Shown piece after piece: positions 54,014 to 59,949 of a stretch of 64,000 nt of DNA (positions are counted from its first letter, which is position 1; every line of letters begins with the position of its first letter). Made by a program: the position numbers and the translations under genes. The stretch comes from Acetobacteraceae bacterium (GTDB taxonomy: Bacteria; Pseudomonadota; Alphaproteobacteria; Acetobacterales; Acetobacteraceae). Location of the stretch: contig CANJLW010000023.1 of NCBI GenBank assembly GCA_947475245.1, positions 1 through 64,000 of the forward strand, written 5' to 3'. Under the pieces are notes generated by a model. It searched no databases. It saw only the letters and a program-made list of their open reading frames with translations, and was not told the origin of the DNA.

Positions 54014-56044
54014 CTAATCTTCCGGTAATCCGCCCAACCGTAAACCTTGCGCGTAGTGTTCAAGGTCCGCCGGCCGTTGGAAGGGGGAGCGTTGGATGGC
54101 GACATTCACCGTAAAGCGCGGCTCGATCGCCAAAAGACGGGCTTTGACTTCGCGCGCTTCCTCTCGATTGCCCAGATGCCCGAGGGCCGCGAGTTGGCCC
54201 TTATAGGTGGACGAAAAGCCGGGGTTCAGCTCGATCGCGCGTCGGCCGATGGCGGCTGCCTGCGCGTAGTCGCCCCGTAAGAGAAAAGGCATCGTCAGCG
54301 CGGAGTCGAAGAAGAACATATGCGGGTCCGATGGCGACAGCCGCATCGCGCGAGTCATCCGGTGTTCGGCTTCGTCCAGATTGCCGAGGTAGGCGTGCGA
54401 CAGGCCGGAAAAGCACCATGCAAGCGCGAGGTTCGGGTTCATCGTCAGCGCGCGATCGTGCAGTACGGTCGCCTCCGACGGTTTGCGGCCCACGAACCCG
54501 CGCACGTGGCCGGCCAGCGTCAGCGCGCGGGCGTCGCCGGGGTCCAGCGTGACGGCGCGTTCGGCCAACTGCACCGCGCGGACGGCGTTTTGCTGCGGGT
54601 CGGTTGCCCAACCCTGCCCGAGCAGAAACAGATACCAATAAGCGTACCAGGCATGCGCGACGCTGTTCAGGGGTTCGGCGGCCACGGCGGCTTCCAGCAG
54701 CAGCCCGGCGGCCTCAAAGCCGCTCAATTCCAGGCGATAGATCGCCGGAATGGCGCGCAGAACATAGTCGTGTGCGGTTGGGTCCGGGTGGTTCGCCGCC
54801 GCGCTGCGTTCGGCTTCCTGGATCAGCAATTCCGGATCGATCTGGGCGACGAGCGTGGCGGCCAGGCTTTCCTGCAGGGTCCAGGTATCTGTGATGGGGT
54901 GATCGAAACGTCGCGCCCAGGCGACGCCGCCGCCCTGTCGCATGTCGTGCAGCCTTGCCATCAGGCGAACCTGCCCGGTGGATTGCTGTAAGGTGCTGTC
55001 CAGCAGGAAATCGTAGTCCGGCGTGCCGCCCGCCGCCGAACGCGCACCGAGAGCCGCGTCCGTGGCCTCGACCGGAATGCAACTGATCCAGCGGAAGCGC
55101 GACAGGCCGGTCACGACTTCCTCGGCCACGCCGGCGGCCAGATCGTCGATTGCTCCGACCCCGATCGTGCGCGGCATGGCGACGCCGAGGCGGAGGCGAC
55201 CGCGGACGGTCGTTCCACCGCCGGCCGGGGCGGGTTCGACGACCGGCGGAGCGACGCGCGGGGGAGGGGACGGCACCGTTCGCACGCGATCGATCAGTTC
55301 CTCGGTCTCGGCCGAGGGGCGGCCTTGTTCCGCTCCGGCCAGGGCCAGGCAGCATTGCTCGTAGGCGGCGATCGCCTCGGCGATGTTCCCGCGGGTGGTT
55401 TCGGCGCGGATAATGGCGCGCCAGGCTGCCTCGTGCCCCCGATCGACGGACAGAATGTGGTTGGCGGTGGAAATCTGATCGTCCGGGTCCACCCGCGTCA
55501 GCAGGATGCCCTCGCCGATCGACAATGCCAGGCGCTTGATCCGCGCGCGTTCGTCCTGAATCCAGACGTCGAAAGCGGGGTCGAGGCCGCCGAGATCGTC
55601 GAGGATCGGCGTTTGAAAGCGCAGGATCGCTTCGGGGTTGGCGGCGTCGAAGCGCAGCGCGTTCAGGACGTCGACCGACATGCCTTCGTCGCGCAGCGCG
55701 AGGAAGTTGCGGTCGATCGTCAGCAGATGGCCGAAGCGAAAGCCGAGGGTGTCCTGGAGTTCGTGGATGGCCTGGCGAAGGGAGGAGCGGCCTTGTTCCT
55801 TGCCGCGCCGGCTCCAGAGCAGGGAGACAAGTTGCAGCCGCAGGACGGGTTTTGGCGCGCCGAGGGCCAGTATGGCGAGGATGGCGCGGGTTTTTCGGGT
55901 GCGCGGCAGATAGGGTCTGCCCTGGGGGTCGTCGGCGGCGAAATGCCCGAACAAGCGCAGGCGGAGATTGCCCTCGGTCGATTGGGCGAAGCCGGCGCGA
56001 TCGTGGATCAGGCTATCGTTCACGGCGGCGCGTGGCCCCTGCAC
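54014..56044 (-). CDS. SARP/BTAD-type transcriptional regulator with TPR repeats
   Basis: The product is 676 residues. Residues about 25-120 form a winged-helix DNA-binding domain (LRLRLFGHFAADDPQGRPYL, then RGKEQGRSSLRQAIHELQD). A BTAD/TPR domain follows to about 265, with AWRAIIRAETTRGNIAEAIA. From 290 to 420 there is a TolB/adenylate-cyclase-associated-like domain, followed by TPR repeats (ALAWCFSGLSHAYLGNLDEA near 560). SARP-family proteins activate nearby genes; this long form is found in Alphaproteobacteria. It diverges from the YeiH-type exporter, so that gene is a plausible target. The inducing signal is unknown. Confidence 0.8.
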   Translation of the reverse strand: MQGPRAAVNDSLIHDRAGFAQSTEGNLRLRLFGHFAADDPQGRPYLPRTRKTRAILAILALGAPKPVLRLQLVSLLWSRRGKEQGRSSLRQAIHELQDTLGFRFGHLLTIDRNFLALRDEGMSVDVLNALRFDAANPEAILRFQTPILDDLGGLDPAFDVWIQDERARIKRLALSIGEGILLTRVDPDDQISTANHILSVDRGHEAAWRAIIRAETTRGNIAEAIAAYEQCCLALAGAEQGRPSAETEELIDRVRTVPSPPPRVAPPVVEPAPAGGGTTVRGRLRLGVAMPRTIGVGAIDDLAAGVAEEVVTGLSRFRWISCIPVEATDAALGARSAAGGTPDYDFLLDSTLQQSTGQVRLMARLHDMRQGGGVAWARRFDHPITDTWTLQESLAATLVAQIDPELLIQEAERSAAANHPDPTAHDYVLRAIPAIYRLELSGFEAAGLLLEAAVAAEPLNSVAHAWYAYWYLFLLGQGWATDPQQNAVRAVQLAERAVTLDPGDARALTLAGHVRGFVGRKPSEATVLHDRALTMNPNLALAWCFSGLSHAYLGNLDEAEHRMTRAMRLSPSDPHMFFFDSALTMPFLLRGDYAQAAAIGRRAIELNPGFSSTYKGQLAALGHLGNREEAREVKARLLAIEPRFTVNVAIQRSPFQRPADLEHYAQGLRLGGLPED

Positions 56045-56263
56045 GGCTGGTGTTCTCGGCGCAACGATTCAACCTTATGGGGTATTATAACACAGTGACA
56101 ATACCTTTCGGGGATTATCACAAACTCATATCGTAATAATTCCGCTTCCTTGCAACCGGTTTGCGGTGGGACCGGGCGCGGGATCGATCCCGCACAGGCT
56201 TGGCGAGGCGAACGAAAAAGACGACAGTCGCGGCACCGATTCATTTGCCGAAGGACATCCGCC

Positions 56264-57319
56264 ATGGCCACCCCACGCGACACGGCGCTGCCCGCCCCAT
56301 TTCCGGAGGCCTTGCCGAGTTGGGCGAGGCTCGCCCTGGGCGGTGTGCTGTGTCTGATCATCGCCGCATGCGCCCAGGCCCTGGCGGTGCCGCTGCCGTT
56401 GATCGGCGCCCCCATCTTCGCCATCGCAATCGGCATTCTGCTGACCAACACGCTGCACGGTGTCCTGCCGCTTAAGGCGCTGCGCATCGGCGACCTAAGC
56501 AAACTTGTGCTCAAGGGCGGCATCATCCTGCTGGGCGCGAGCCTGGATATCGGCGACATCGCGCGCACCGGGATGAATTCCCTGCCCTTGCTGTTCGTCA
56601 CCATCGCGGCGGGCCTGATTTGCTCCCTCGGGATCGGCAAGCTGATGGGGATCGATTGGCGCATCCGCTGTCTGATCGGCATGGGCACCACCATTTGCGG
56701 CGCGTCGGCCATCGCGGCGTTGTCGCCGGTGATCCGCGCCAAGGCGGAAGCGATCGCCTATTCGGTGACGGTCGTTTTTCTTTTCAACATGATCGCCGTG
56801 TTCACCTTCCCGACCCTGGGGCATGTGATGGGGTTGACGGATAACGGCTTCGGCATTTGGGCGGGCACGGCCGTCAACGACACGTCGGCGGTTGTCGCCG
56901 CCGGCTTCGCGTATAGCCAGGATGCCGGCACGACCGCGACCATCGTCAAGCTGACCCGGACAACGCTGATCATCCCACTGGTCATCGGCTTTGGCTTGGC
57001 CTTGCCGCTGTTTGAAGCCCGTTCGGCGGACGACGACGTATCCCTGGCCCGTCGCGTCTATAACGCGTTCCCGACGTTCATTCTGCTGTTCCTGCTGGCT
57101 TCGGTGCTGCGGTCCATGGGCCTTGTCGGACCTTACACCGATCAGGTGCAGTTGTTCGGTCGGTGGATCCTGGTCGTCGCGCTTGCGGCTGTCGGGCTTC
57201 AGGGACATTGGCGCGCATTTGTCGGCGCGGGCATCAAGCCGTTGGCGTTGGGCTTTCTGACCTGGCTCGCGGTGGCCCTGTCCAGCCTGGCGATGCAAAG
57301 CTGGTCCGGGGAGTTGTAG
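56264..57319 (+). CDS. YeiH-family putative sulfate exporter (UPF0324)
   Basis: The product is 351 residues from ATG at 56264 with AAGGA eight bases upstream. There are about ten membrane segments. The pattern GTTICGASAIAALSPVI near 145-161 and GTAVNDTSAVVAAGFAYS near 205-222 is diagnostic of the YeiH/UPF0324 (Cons_hypoth698) family, proposed to export sulfate or related anions. It is divergent from the SARP-type regulator. The transported solute is only inferred for the family. Confidence 0.85.
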   Translation: MATPRDTALPAPFPEALPSWARLALGGVLCLIIAACAQALAVPLPLIGAPIFAIAIGILLTNTLHGVLPLKALRIGDLSKLVLKGGIILLGASLDIGDIARTGMNSLPLLFVTIAAGLICSLGIGKLMGIDWRIRCLIGMGTTICGASAIAALSPVIRAKAEAIAYSVTVVFLFNMIAVFTFPTLGHVMGLTDNGFGIWAGTAVNDTSAVVAAGFAYSQDAGTTATIVKLTRTTLIIPLVIGFGLALPLFEARSADDDVSLARRVYNAFPTFILLFLLASVLRSMGLVGPYTDQVQLFGRWILVVALAAVGLQGHWRAFVGAGIKPLALGFLTWLAVALSSLAMQSWSGEL

Positions 57320-57423
57320 GAAATTTATCAATTATAGGAAAAATGTCTTGACGCGTTTTCCGGGCGGGCATATCGATACGGTCATCGACCGGTTACGCAC
57401 GTCCGGAGCGCGCCTCTACTTGC

Positions 57424-57451
57424 TTGAACGCATTCGAGGTAAAAATATATC
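57424..57451 (+). promoter_or_regulatory. Sigma-70-like promoter of the repeat-peptide gene
   Basis: TTGAAC (57424-57429) and TATATC (57446-57451) are separated by 16 bases, each matching four of six consensus bases. Transcription would begin about 50 bases before the peptide ATG. A second weaker pair is TTGACG 57348-57353 with TATCGA 57371-57376. Confidence 0.55.
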
Positions 57452-57505
57452 CGCTCATCCACCGCACAGGCCGGATCGTTATTGATTATTCATTCGGAGA
57501 TTTAC

Positions 57506-57676
57506 ATGACGATGAACAATTCGACGATTTCCCAGATCGCAGTTTTACTCCCGGCACCCGTCCGCGTGACGCATGTGCAGGTCGGCGGCGGCTATCGCCT
57601 GCCGGCGCCGGTGCGGACGCCGAGCGTTCAGGTCGGTGGCGGATATCGGCTCCCGGAAGCGGTCGCCAAAAACTGA
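57506..57676 (+). CDS. Small repeat peptide, two 17-residue units (candidate modified-peptide precursor)
   Basis: The peptide is 56 residues. ATG at 57506 is preceded by GGAG at eight bases. A leader of about 14 residues (MTMNNSTISQIAVL) is followed by LPAPVRVTHVQVGGGYR, LPAPVRTPSVQVGGGYR and a short LPEAVAKN end. The two units share 14 of 17 residues. Nine of those 14 codons differ synonymously between units, and the three differing residues are clustered. That means protein-level selection, not a recent DNA duplication. It has its own promoter and a strong terminator. No family is recognised and there is no signal peptide. Leader-plus-repeated-core architecture suggests a ribosomally made, post-translationally modified peptide, with the next gene as a possible partner. 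Function is unknown. Confidence 0.7.
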   Translation: MTMNNSTISQIAVLLPAPVRVTHVQVGGGYRLPAPVRTPSVQVGGGYRLPEAVAKN

Positions 57677-57687
57677 TACGAACTTCC

Positions 57688-57722
57688 GGTCCGCCGGCGG
57701 TCGTTCAAAGCCGCCGCGGACC
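57688..57722 (+). terminator. GC-rich hairpin after the repeat-peptide gene
   Basis: Arms GGTCCGCCGGCGG and CCGCCGCGGACC (one bulge) enclose a 10-base loop 12 bases after the peptide stop. It may act with the stronger terminator just downstream. Confidence 0.55.
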
Positions 57723-57732
57723 TTCGGAATTC

Positions 57733-57762
57733 AGCCGCCATGCCCCGCATGGCGGCTTTTTT
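57733..57762 (+). terminator. Rho-independent terminator of the repeat-peptide gene
   Basis: Perfect 11-bp arms AGCCGCCATGC and GCATGGCGGCT enclose a 3-base CCC loop, and the final T opens a run of six T. This is the strongest terminator in the window and isolates the peptide transcript from the next gene. Confidence 0.9.
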
Positions 57763-57826
57763 AATGGCTGACAGCGCGAAATGGGCGTCGCCCGCCCGGT
57801 TCACGCAAGCGCGACGATCCCATGGA

Positions 57827-57863
57827 ATTCCACGGGGCAATTCCAGGGGGCCATTCCAGGGGG
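57827..57863 (+). repeat. Three 13-bp repeats in front of the DUF6065-like gene
   Basis: ATTCCACGGGG, ATTCCAGGGGG and ATTCCAGGGGG begin at 57827, 57840 and 57853. The third ends nine bases before the ATG and supplies the ribosome site. They could be an operator or repeated ribosome-binding sequences. Confidence 0.65.
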
Positions 57864-57872
57864 TAAACACGC

Positions 57873-58649
57873 ATGTCGCAGACAGACTCTCCCGTCATTC
57901 GCTTTTTCCGCATGATCGACTCTGCCCGTCCGCCGCAGCGCGCCGACCGCTCTGCCGCAGGAACATTGCCAACCCGTGCATTTCGGTACTGTGAAGCCGT
58001 CACCAGCGCCAGCGCCTTCGGCTGGTGGGTATTCCCCCCCGTCGACTTCCAGGTGGTGTGGGACGGCGAAAGCATCTTTTGGGCGGCCAATGACAAAGCG
58101 GAATGGGAAGTCCTGGCGCCGTCGGCCGACGCGCCGGGGTTTGGCGACGCGTTTCGGGCCGCGGCGCCGGATTACCTGCGGGACCGCATTCCCCCCTTTC
58201 TGACCGCCCTGCCGGAGGTCGGGTCCCTGCAAATCTGGACCGGGCTGCTCGCGAGAACCCGTGACGACTGGAGTCTGCTCGCCCGCGCGCCGGCAAACCT
58301 GCCGCCGTCCGGCGGTTATGGCATCTACGAGGGCATCGTCGAGGCCGATCGGTGGTTCGGCCCGCTGTTTATCAATGTCCGCCTGACGCGGAGCCATTCG
58401 CCCATTCGGTTCCGGGCGGATTTCCCCCTGCTTCAGGTGCAGCCGCTGCCGCGCGACGTCTACGGCGATGCCGTCCTGGGTTCCATGACGATGGGGCCGG
58501 ACATGAACGCGTTCGCGGCGGAGGACTGGGACGCGTTCGATACCTCTGTGCTGACGCCGGGCATTGATGCCAACCGGCCCTTCGGCGCCTACGCGGTCGC
58601 AACGCGCAAGCGCGCCAGATCGGGGTGTCCGGTTCACGCAACCGCCTGA
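57873..58649 (+). CDS. Uncharacterised protein (DUF6065-like)
   Basis: The product is 258 residues with AGGGGG ribosome site nine bases upstream. FRMIDSARPPQRADRSAAGT at about 11-30, FRYCEAVTSASAFGWWVFPP near 37-56, FTGLLARTR-type segment TGLLARTRDDWSLLARAPAN near 120-140, and EGIVEADRWFGPLFINVRLT resemble, from memory, the DUF6065 family. Its members are cytoplasmic, about 250 residues, with no known function. A Trp-rich core and the absence of recognised catalytic motifs leave the activity open. It lies about 200 bases downstream of the repeat-peptide gene on the same strand, with a terminator between, and could be its partner. Confidence 0.6.
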   Translation: MSQTDSPVIRFFRMIDSARPPQRADRSAAGTLPTRAFRYCEAVTSASAFGWWVFPPVDFQVVWDGESIFWAANDKAEWEVLAPSADAPGFGDAFRAAAPDYLRDRIPPFLTALPEVGSLQIWTGLLARTRDDWSLLARAPANLPPSGGYGIYEGIVEADRWFGPLFINVRLTRSHSPIRFRADFPLLQVQPLPRDVYGDAVLGSMTMGPDMNAFAAEDWDAFDTSVLTPGIDANRPFGAYAVATRKRARSGCPVHATA

Positions 58650-58761
58650 CGCTGTCGGTTTGCAGGCTGGCGTGGCGGCGGCTTATCGCCGTCGCGCTTT
58701 GACACCGTCGCCTTGGGGCGCTTTTCTGCTCACCGTCAACGACAGGTGAGGAAACAGCGGT

Positions 58762-59949
58762 ATGAGCACAGCACTCCGGCCACTCGACGGCATACGTGTT
58801 GTCGCGCTCGAACACGCGGTGGCCGCGCCGCTCTGCAGCCGGCACCTCGCCGATCTCGGCGCGGACGTGATCAAGATCGAACGCGCCGGAGAGGGAGATT
58901 TCGCCCGGAACTACGACAATTACGTTTTTGGCCAGAGCAGCCATTTCCTGTGGCTGAATCGCGGCAAGCGCAGCATCACCCTCGATATCAAGAACCCGTC
59001 GGGCCGAGCGGCGCTTACCCGTTTGCTTGGCGATACCGATGTGCTGATCCAGAATCTCGCGCCGGGCGCGACGGCCCGCCTGGGGTTGAGCCACGAGGCC
59101 CTGAAGCCCGCGCATCCGAAGCTCGTGGTGTGCGATATCTCAGGCTATGGGGAAAGCGGGCCGTTCGCGCAAAAGAAGGCCTACGACCTGCTGATTCAGG
59201 CGGAATCCGGGATTATCAGCGTGACCGGTTCGCCGGACGAGCCGTCGCGCGTGGGTATCTCCATCGCCGATATCTGCACGGGCATGTATGCGCTGACCGG
59301 TATTCTGGCCGCGCTTGTCCGGCGCGGACGAACCGGGGAGGGGGCGAACGTCAAGATCGCGATGCTCGACGCCCTGGCGGAATGGACGACTCAGCCGCAG
59401 TTGCGCGCCGCCTATTTCGGCTCTCCCCCGCCGCGTTCGCCCGGGATGCACCCGGCGATCGCGCCGTACGGACCGCATCGGACCGGCGACGGGCAGGTGA
59501 TCTTCGGCATTCAGAACGAGCGGGAATGGGCCAATTTCTGCGCCAACGTGCTGAAGCAGCCGGAGGTGCGGACCGATCCGCGTTTCAGCACGGTGAAGGA
59601 CCGGCGTGAGAATCGCGCCGCGCTGACGGCGTTGATCGAGGGGCATTTCAGCACCATGACGTCCATGCAGGTGGTGGAGGTGCTGGAGGCGGCGGGCATC
59701 GCCAACGGCCGGTTGAACGATTCGAAGGATGTGTGGGAGCACGCGCAGTTGGAGGCGCGGGATCGTTGGCGCGAAGTCGGCACGCCGAACGGGCGTATCC
59801 GCGCGATGTTGCCGCCGTTTACCTTTTCGGATGTCGAGGCGTCGATGGGCGATGTCCCGGCGGTCGGGCAGCAAACCGACGCAATTCTGGCCGAACTCGG
59901 CTATTCCGCCGCTGAAATCGCGGCCATGCATGCGGAGGGCGCGGTATGA
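58762..59949 (+). CDS. CaiB/BaiF family (class III) CoA-transferase
   Basis: The product is 395 residues. It has LDGIRVVALEHAVAAPLCSR, GADVIKIERAGEGDFAR near 31-47, DISGYGESGP near 122, and the catalytic Asp region VGISIADICTGMYALTGILA near 160-179. Class III transferases move CoA between carboxylic acids. GAGG upstream of ATG supports the start. It overlaps the MaoC-type gene by ATGA, so the two probably act in sequence on one acid, for example CoA activation followed by hydration. Confidence 0.9.
   Translation: MSTALRPLDGIRVVALEHAVAAPLCSRHLADLGADVIKIERAGEGDFARNYDNYVFGQSSHFLWLNRGKRSITLDIKNPSGRAALTRLLGDTDVLIQNLAPGATARLGLSHEALKPAHPKLVVCDISGYGESGPFAQKKAYDLLIQAESGIISVTGSPDEPSRVGISIADICTGMYALTGILAALVRRGRTGEGANVKIAMLDALAEWTTQPQLRAAYFGSPPPRSPGMHPAIAPYGPHRTGDGQVIFGIQNEREWANFCANVLKQPEVRTDPRFSTVKDRRENRAALTALIEGHFSTMTSMQVVEVLEAAGIANGRLNDSKDVWEHAQLEARDRWREVGTPNGRIRAMLPPFTFSDVEASMGDVPAVGQQTDAILAELGYSAAEIAAMHAEGAV

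Follow-up and report, generated by a model that had tools for sequence, protein, structure and literature searches.

The window analysed here is a 64,000-nucleotide stretch of DNA from an Acetobacteraceae bacterium (assembly GCA_947475245.1, contig CANJLW010000023.1), in which a short gene for a repeat peptide lies directly before a gene for a DUF6065-like protein. The features that make up this pair are the following.

57496..57499, + strand: putative ribosome site GGAG, 6 nucleotides (nt) 5' of the ATG (read from the sequence)
57506..57676, + strand: repeat peptide gene, 56 amino acids (translation, homologues, selection)
57548..57598, + strand: unit 1, LPAPVRVTHVQVGGGYR, 17 residues (residues 15-31)
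57599..57649, + strand: unit 2, LPAPVRTPSVQVGGGYR, 17 residues (residues 32-48)
57733..57762, + strand: hairpin like an intrinsic terminator, with a T run, in the gap from the peptide gene to the DUF6065 gene (hairpin scan, recovered in a second scan)
57873..58649, + strand: DUF6065-like partner, 258 amino acids, predicted dUTPase-like fold (PF19541, E 5.8e-13, 49.3 bits, above the Pfam cut-off of 26.6 bits)

The open reading frame at 57506-57676 translates to MTMNNSTISQIAVLLPAPVRVTHVQVGGGYRLPAPVRTPSVQVGGGYRLPEAVAKN, with the two units followed by a partial third, LPEAVAKN. A first-pass annotation made from the letters alone had described 56 codons, two 17-residue units and 14 identical residues, nine of them with synonymous codons, and translation and codon comparison bear it out: of the 14 codons for identical residues nine differ synonymously and five are the same, and the remaining three codons are non-synonymous. 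In frame, the proportion of synonymous differences (pS) between the units is 0.65 and that of non-synonymous differences (pN) 0.14, whereas the pattern is reversed in the two other frames (pS 0.19 and 0.13, pN 0.33 and 0.36). The ribosome site and the terminator that it had proposed are both visible, the latter as a stem at 57733-57757 of 11 pairs with a 3-base loop, followed by the T run; the proposed promoter is not, as a scan of 56000-58900 for sigma-70-like sites returned none on the + strand and a single site on the - strand. Neither Pfam nor PADLOC matched the peptide, and two NCBIfam matches remained sub-threshold (E 0.12 and 0.14). The statement that no family is recognised therefore holds for these libraries, but not beyond them, because homologues exist.

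A first search of 98 related genomes gave weak but recurrent matches in short open frames, the peptides of which hold 1-4 copies of [VI]-x-[LV]-G-G-G-[FY]-R-[LM]-P or close variants. The family as a whole carries 1 to at least 19 units of roughly 12-30 residues, built around D-x-G-[KR]-[VI]-R-[LV]-G-[GA], and the variable number of units anticipated in the first-pass annotation is thus found. The 17-residue TADAGKVRLGGYAPTLS-like units number 19 in locus L211 and 18, by a loose count to the contig edge, in L122; about 18 ADSGAVRVGAGCRTPKASV units occur in L109. At the other extreme, single-unit peptides of ~30 residues are little more than one unit (for example L187), and the real peptide of L210 has two. 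In L247, an outlying member of the class, KVKLGMMAPAFGKS units are numerous but lack the D-x-G part. The residues that follow the shared motif vary among units (GGGYRLP, GGYAPTL, GAGCR and others). The most widely shared part is D-x-G-[KR]-[VI]-R-x-G rather than GGGYR, first taken to be the fixed element. In the window this motif is partly lost (D-x-G is gone); judged by sequence, the window copy is a divergent family member, and it may be a changed or relaxed one.

For counting, a strict unit pattern was used, D-x-[GS]-x-[VIAL]-[RKVQ]-x-G-[GASNRC], in an open frame ending at most 700 nt upstream of the DUF gene. Arrays uncut by a contig end then hold one unit (26 loci), two (31 loci) and up to 17, in counts that miss looser units. 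Among the letters that the pattern allows, R takes 86% at position 5 and G 84% at position 2, shares that are bound by the selecting pattern, in which D and the G of position 7 are fixed by construction. Contigs often end within arrays (L105, L106, L107, L108, L122, L254, L263), and draft genomes may thus truncate or miss the long copies. Weak library matches of the family peptides mostly had no stretch passing on its own and were set aside as low complexity. The exceptions are an autotransporter model with one stretch that passes alone (L109), and DUF3299, the whole-protein cut-off of which is exceeded in two arrays by summed repeats with no single stretch passing.

Adjacent units are under strong purifying selection. 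Across 223 pairs from 62 arrays, pN/pS is 0.11 in frame and 3.26 and 3.37 in the other frames; a set of 234 pairs from 63 arrays gives 0.11 against 3.08 and 3.47. The earlier claim of selection on the peptide itself is thereby upheld for the family as well as for the window. The units are also tied to the downstream gene. A DUF6065-like gene lies directly 3' of the peptide in all 12 of the first loci (the window included). The wider set comprised 120 peptide-branch DUF proteins after removal of duplicates, of which 100 have at least 700 nt upstream (20 short-flank loci were excluded). The strict pattern stands upstream of the DUF gene in 78 of these 100, a count that is no blind test since the pattern was written after the sequences had been seen; the controls, which used the same pattern at other positions, scored ~0.5% (8/1256 in the window, 30/5850 elsewhere in the loci). 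A looser unit, judged by eye, occurs in 13 more (the window, L023, L031, L025, L170, L204, L207, L138, L247, L197, which is partly masked, L173, L166 and L162). The adjacency of the DUF6065-like gene, which the first-pass annotation had put up for checking, is thus borne out. Among ordinary DUF6065 members the strict pattern is found upstream in 0 of 18; this class, below 150 bits, has 19 loci with flank, one of which, a relative in L164, was set apart.

The peptide-associated DUF6065 proteins are, by sequence similarity, a separate branch from these ordinary members, the fetched loci falling into two groups that score 111 bits or more and 31 bits or less against the window protein. Within the tree of DUF proteins the type of unit follows the branching, with 25 changes against a shuffled mean of 62.3 and none of 200 shuffles as low, an agreement to which vertical descent and near-copies contribute; the tree counts L133, one gene in two pieces, twice. 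In this tree the window protein has a long branch (0.57); its neighbour is L163, a locus with no unit found, and L025, with GGGYRLP units, is also near.

Structure prediction offers a view of what the partner may be. Modelled from 59 sequences (mean predicted local distance difference test score, pLDDT, 83.9), the window protein has a dUTPase as its best PDB match (Foldseek probability 1.00, E 9e-4, template modelling (TM) score 0.78 by target and 0.39 by query), and a model of an ordinary member (10 sequences, mean pLDDT 67.8) also places dUTPases first in the PDB (E 9.5e-4). With these modest scores DUF6065 is predicted to have a dUTPase-like fold, although identity in the listed matches is 8-15%. 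By eye, of the five catalytic motifs of dUTPases only the acidic region of motif 3 looks kept (EGIVETDxWFG); motifs 2 and 5 do not look so. The PDB matches of both models include dUTPase-Stl complexes; dUTPases are trimeric and regulated by protein partners. In a viral structure library, uncharacterised Caudovirales proteins such as A0A6J5MPI8 head the matches of a DUF6065 model (E 7e-9), with dUTPases after them. Ten members of both branches have P33, C40, A46, G50, W63, G65, G117, T129, N142, G154, E157, D159, W161 and N168 in common, so that the window partner shares C40, N142, E157 and D159 with ordinary PF19541 proteins; the latter differ in showing no unit peptide in the 18 loci above and in two fusions to a C-terminal Cupin_8/JmjC domain, one in the window's own genome (L145, contig 21) and one in L151 (PF13621, E 2.2e-40 and 2e-41). 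Taken together, the predicted fold, the conserved residues and these fusions suggest a role in peptide or protein modification. The window DUF protein matched no peptidase family in Pfam.

Two further genes lie upstream of the pair in the window.

54014..56044, - strand: divergent BTAD/TPR regulator (BTAD 23.1 bits, cut-off 22.1)
56264..57319, + strand: putative transporter of the YeiH family (PF03601; Pfam), with ATG 56264 taken as the start within the open frame 56150-57319

The divergent regulator is upstream in 12/12 of the first loci, with a YeiH-family gene in between in 8/12. With the window not counted, a BTAD homologue is present in 38 of 44 loci that have both flanks, and, of the 37 RLP-type loci that offer 2900 nt of upstream sequence, 17 have a YeiH gene close by; for other loci the figures are 2/9 without a strict unit, 0/16 of the PxL type and 0/7 of the GxGxR type. 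BT1-family transporters occur in five loci. A weak match of the regulator to the peptide-modification cyclase model TIGR04510 (E 0.0087) falls in the TPR-rich end of the protein and was disregarded. Further, 57 of the 60 family genomes scanned have tldD, as a single match in all but one, where it is split over two contigs. Counted from the DUF side, 7/16 PxL-type loci have their array immediately after tldD; from the tldD side, an array follows directly in 10 of the 30 tldD loci examined out of these 57 genomes. The window's own genome holds a second locus (L105 and L106, contigs 6 and 41) with an array of TADAGKVRLGGYAPTLS-like units cut by contig ends. At one end the array follows directly on tldD; at the other lie array, DUF6065, a GDSL-type hydrolase and a regulator. 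Contigs 41 and 6 would presumably join through the array.

The DUF partner was found in 33/33 genomes of the genus, with 1-4 matches each, and in 67/200 genomes of the family Acetobacteraceae (PF19541 as such in 73/200). At the level of the class it was found in 9/385 genomes at 1e-10, five of them strongly and the own genome included, and in the phylum set of 398 in the own genome only. When named genomes were scanned with the DUF alignment, 284 relatives came up and 80 of them were kept, mostly from Acetobacteraceae and also from Roseomonas, Elioraea and Sneathiella; three loci labelled Solirubrobacterales, Nitrosovibrio and Asaia (L236, L238, L223) nest among Acetobacteraceae, so their labels may be wrong. 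Carriers not labelled as metagenome assemblies are Rhizobium sp. SRDI969, Neoroseomonas alba, Elioraea sp. Yellowstone and Sneathiella glossodoripedis. On two Rhizobium plasmids the peptide has three units like DFxDDGKVHIANKSPAFDI, in which the G of the motif is replaced by A, and ends 16 nt before the DUF6065 gene (39.7% identity). In Rhizobium sp. SRDI969 an MFS gene overlaps the DUF6065 stop; in Rhizobium sp. WSM4643 (L283) two hypothetical proteins are annotated at the MFS place, perhaps a broken copy. No phage record in the search carries the DUF protein and none of four window proteins has a PADLOC match at E 0.1, on which grounds phage defence was rejected, as was a known RNA element in view of no Rfam match.

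A dedicated pair of peptide and partner, purifying selection on the units, a regulator, and the transporters or tldD present at some of the loci together look like the genes of a ribosomally synthesised and post-translationally modified peptide (RiPP). We tentatively favour, at a little short of an even chance, a RiPP-like two-gene cassette of multiple units. Every unit would bring a recognition sequence of its own, D-x-G-[KR]-[VI]-R-x-G, in place of a leader, and DUF6065 would act on the units. The DUF6065 protein would bind each unit and change the residues after it (GGGYRLP, GGYAPTL, GAGCR), TldD/E or another peptidase might trim the chain into repeated products, and a neighbouring YeiH, BT1 or MFS transporter might export them. 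Neighbouring units differ little, so the amount of the one product would depend on their copy number.

Multi-core RiPP precursors of the microviridin type (PMC5934393) similarly have several units per precursor, a dedicated partner gene and a regulator, as well as a transporter or leader-trimming peptidase gene, which accompanies part of the loci here. They differ in that neither a conserved leader nor a RiPP enzyme was seen in the present system, where modification is a prediction. According to PMC10885120 and PMC5810440, TldD/E shows no preference for particular sequences as it cuts unfolded peptides from the N terminus, and its genes often lie outside RiPP clusters; the former adds that it removes the leader of microcin B17 and that a homologue is encoded in the ammosamide cluster. 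The position of tldD directly before many PxL-type arrays resembles these cases, whereas here tldD is widespread and no azole-forming enzymes are among the scanned neighbours.

Several observations weigh against the favoured cassette. The leader suggested in the first-pass annotation is not seen family-wide: the nearest ATG lies 6-36 residues from the first unit (median 13, 70 loci, with one locus of wrongly chosen frame excluded from the range). Pfam scans of the window neighbours and of chosen neighbours elsewhere, which cover part of the neighbours rather than all loci, contain no known RiPP enzyme. Thus, of the marks of a RiPP, a short, conserved ribosomal precursor next to a gene dedicated to it is present, and a conserved leader (70 loci) and a class-defining enzyme nearby (part of the neighbours) are absent; for these two reasons the system is not filed as a RiPP, although the recognition sequence inside the unit could replace the leader. 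No unit was found in nine of the 100 peptide-branch loci (L129, L217, L163, L132, L130, L209, L154, L241, L139), nor beside the relative set apart above (L164:1201-1950, 141 bits), a divergent or partial member of the peptide branch about 4.8 kb before the main L164 DUF gene. The fold match is modest (TM 0.39 by query, E 9e-4), and the second model is of low confidence (mean pLDDT 67.8). A hairpin resembling a terminator, such as separates the two genes in the window, is present between them in only 7 of ~100 loci (L133 again counted twice). Transporters vary between loci, with none seen in many, and since tldD is common, its position may reflect inheritance. Modification, cleavage and export of a product are steps that we infer from sequence and gene context.

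The main rival is a non-catalytic binding system, in which the array is an unmodified multivalent ligand, its units binding a possibly trimeric DUF6065 and thereby assembling, storing or regulating it. In its favour are a single dedicated partner, the lack of any known modifying enzyme among the scanned neighbours, units that are conserved although no leader precedes them, and a predicted dUTPase-like fold with dUTPase-Stl complexes among its matches; it leaves unexplained the adjacent transporters and tldD as well as the single-unit peptides, and the Cys, Glu and Asp kept in DUF6065 could be catalytic. We consider it unlikely, though to be taken seriously. Less probable again is that the chain is cut, without modification, into many copies of a signal or antimicrobial peptide, for which DUF6065 would be the processing, immunity or sensing partner. 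Repeat units would yield near-identical products and transporters lie near part of the loci, but by eye there is no family-wide signal sequence or double-glycine leader, and the lack of a Pfam peptidase match in the DUF protein also speaks against it. That the arrays are chance or low-complexity repeats with no function is hardly credible: they are indeed repetitive and GC-rich, and other frames are open in some, but this is contradicted for the family by the in-frame selection (pN/pS 0.11, above 3 elsewhere), by a partner kept throughout the genus and by the recurrence of the unit in other families. With the pattern at ~0.5% of other positions, chance repeat was rejected.

A search of open-licence papers gave none on DUF6065 and, among the entries listed and by title and start of abstract, no description of a repeat-peptide/DUF6065 system; searches there for PF19541 and three motif strings returned two unrelated antibody papers only. 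The favoured cassette may, with rather less assurance than the cassette itself, amount to a ribosomal peptide pathway of a new class: a DUF6065 enzyme of dUTPase fold would modify tandem units, each with a recognition sequence of its own, throughout one Acetobacteraceae genus and on plasmids of pea-associated Rhizobium. If so, the ordinary DUF6065-JmjC fusions would by extension be protein-modifying enzymes too. From a limited literature search we know of no dUTPase-fold catalyst acting on peptides; if the peptide is modified, this one would be the first known to us. Regardless, the dedicated peptide partner is a strong functional lead for the DUF6065 family, and one that can be tested with two genes.
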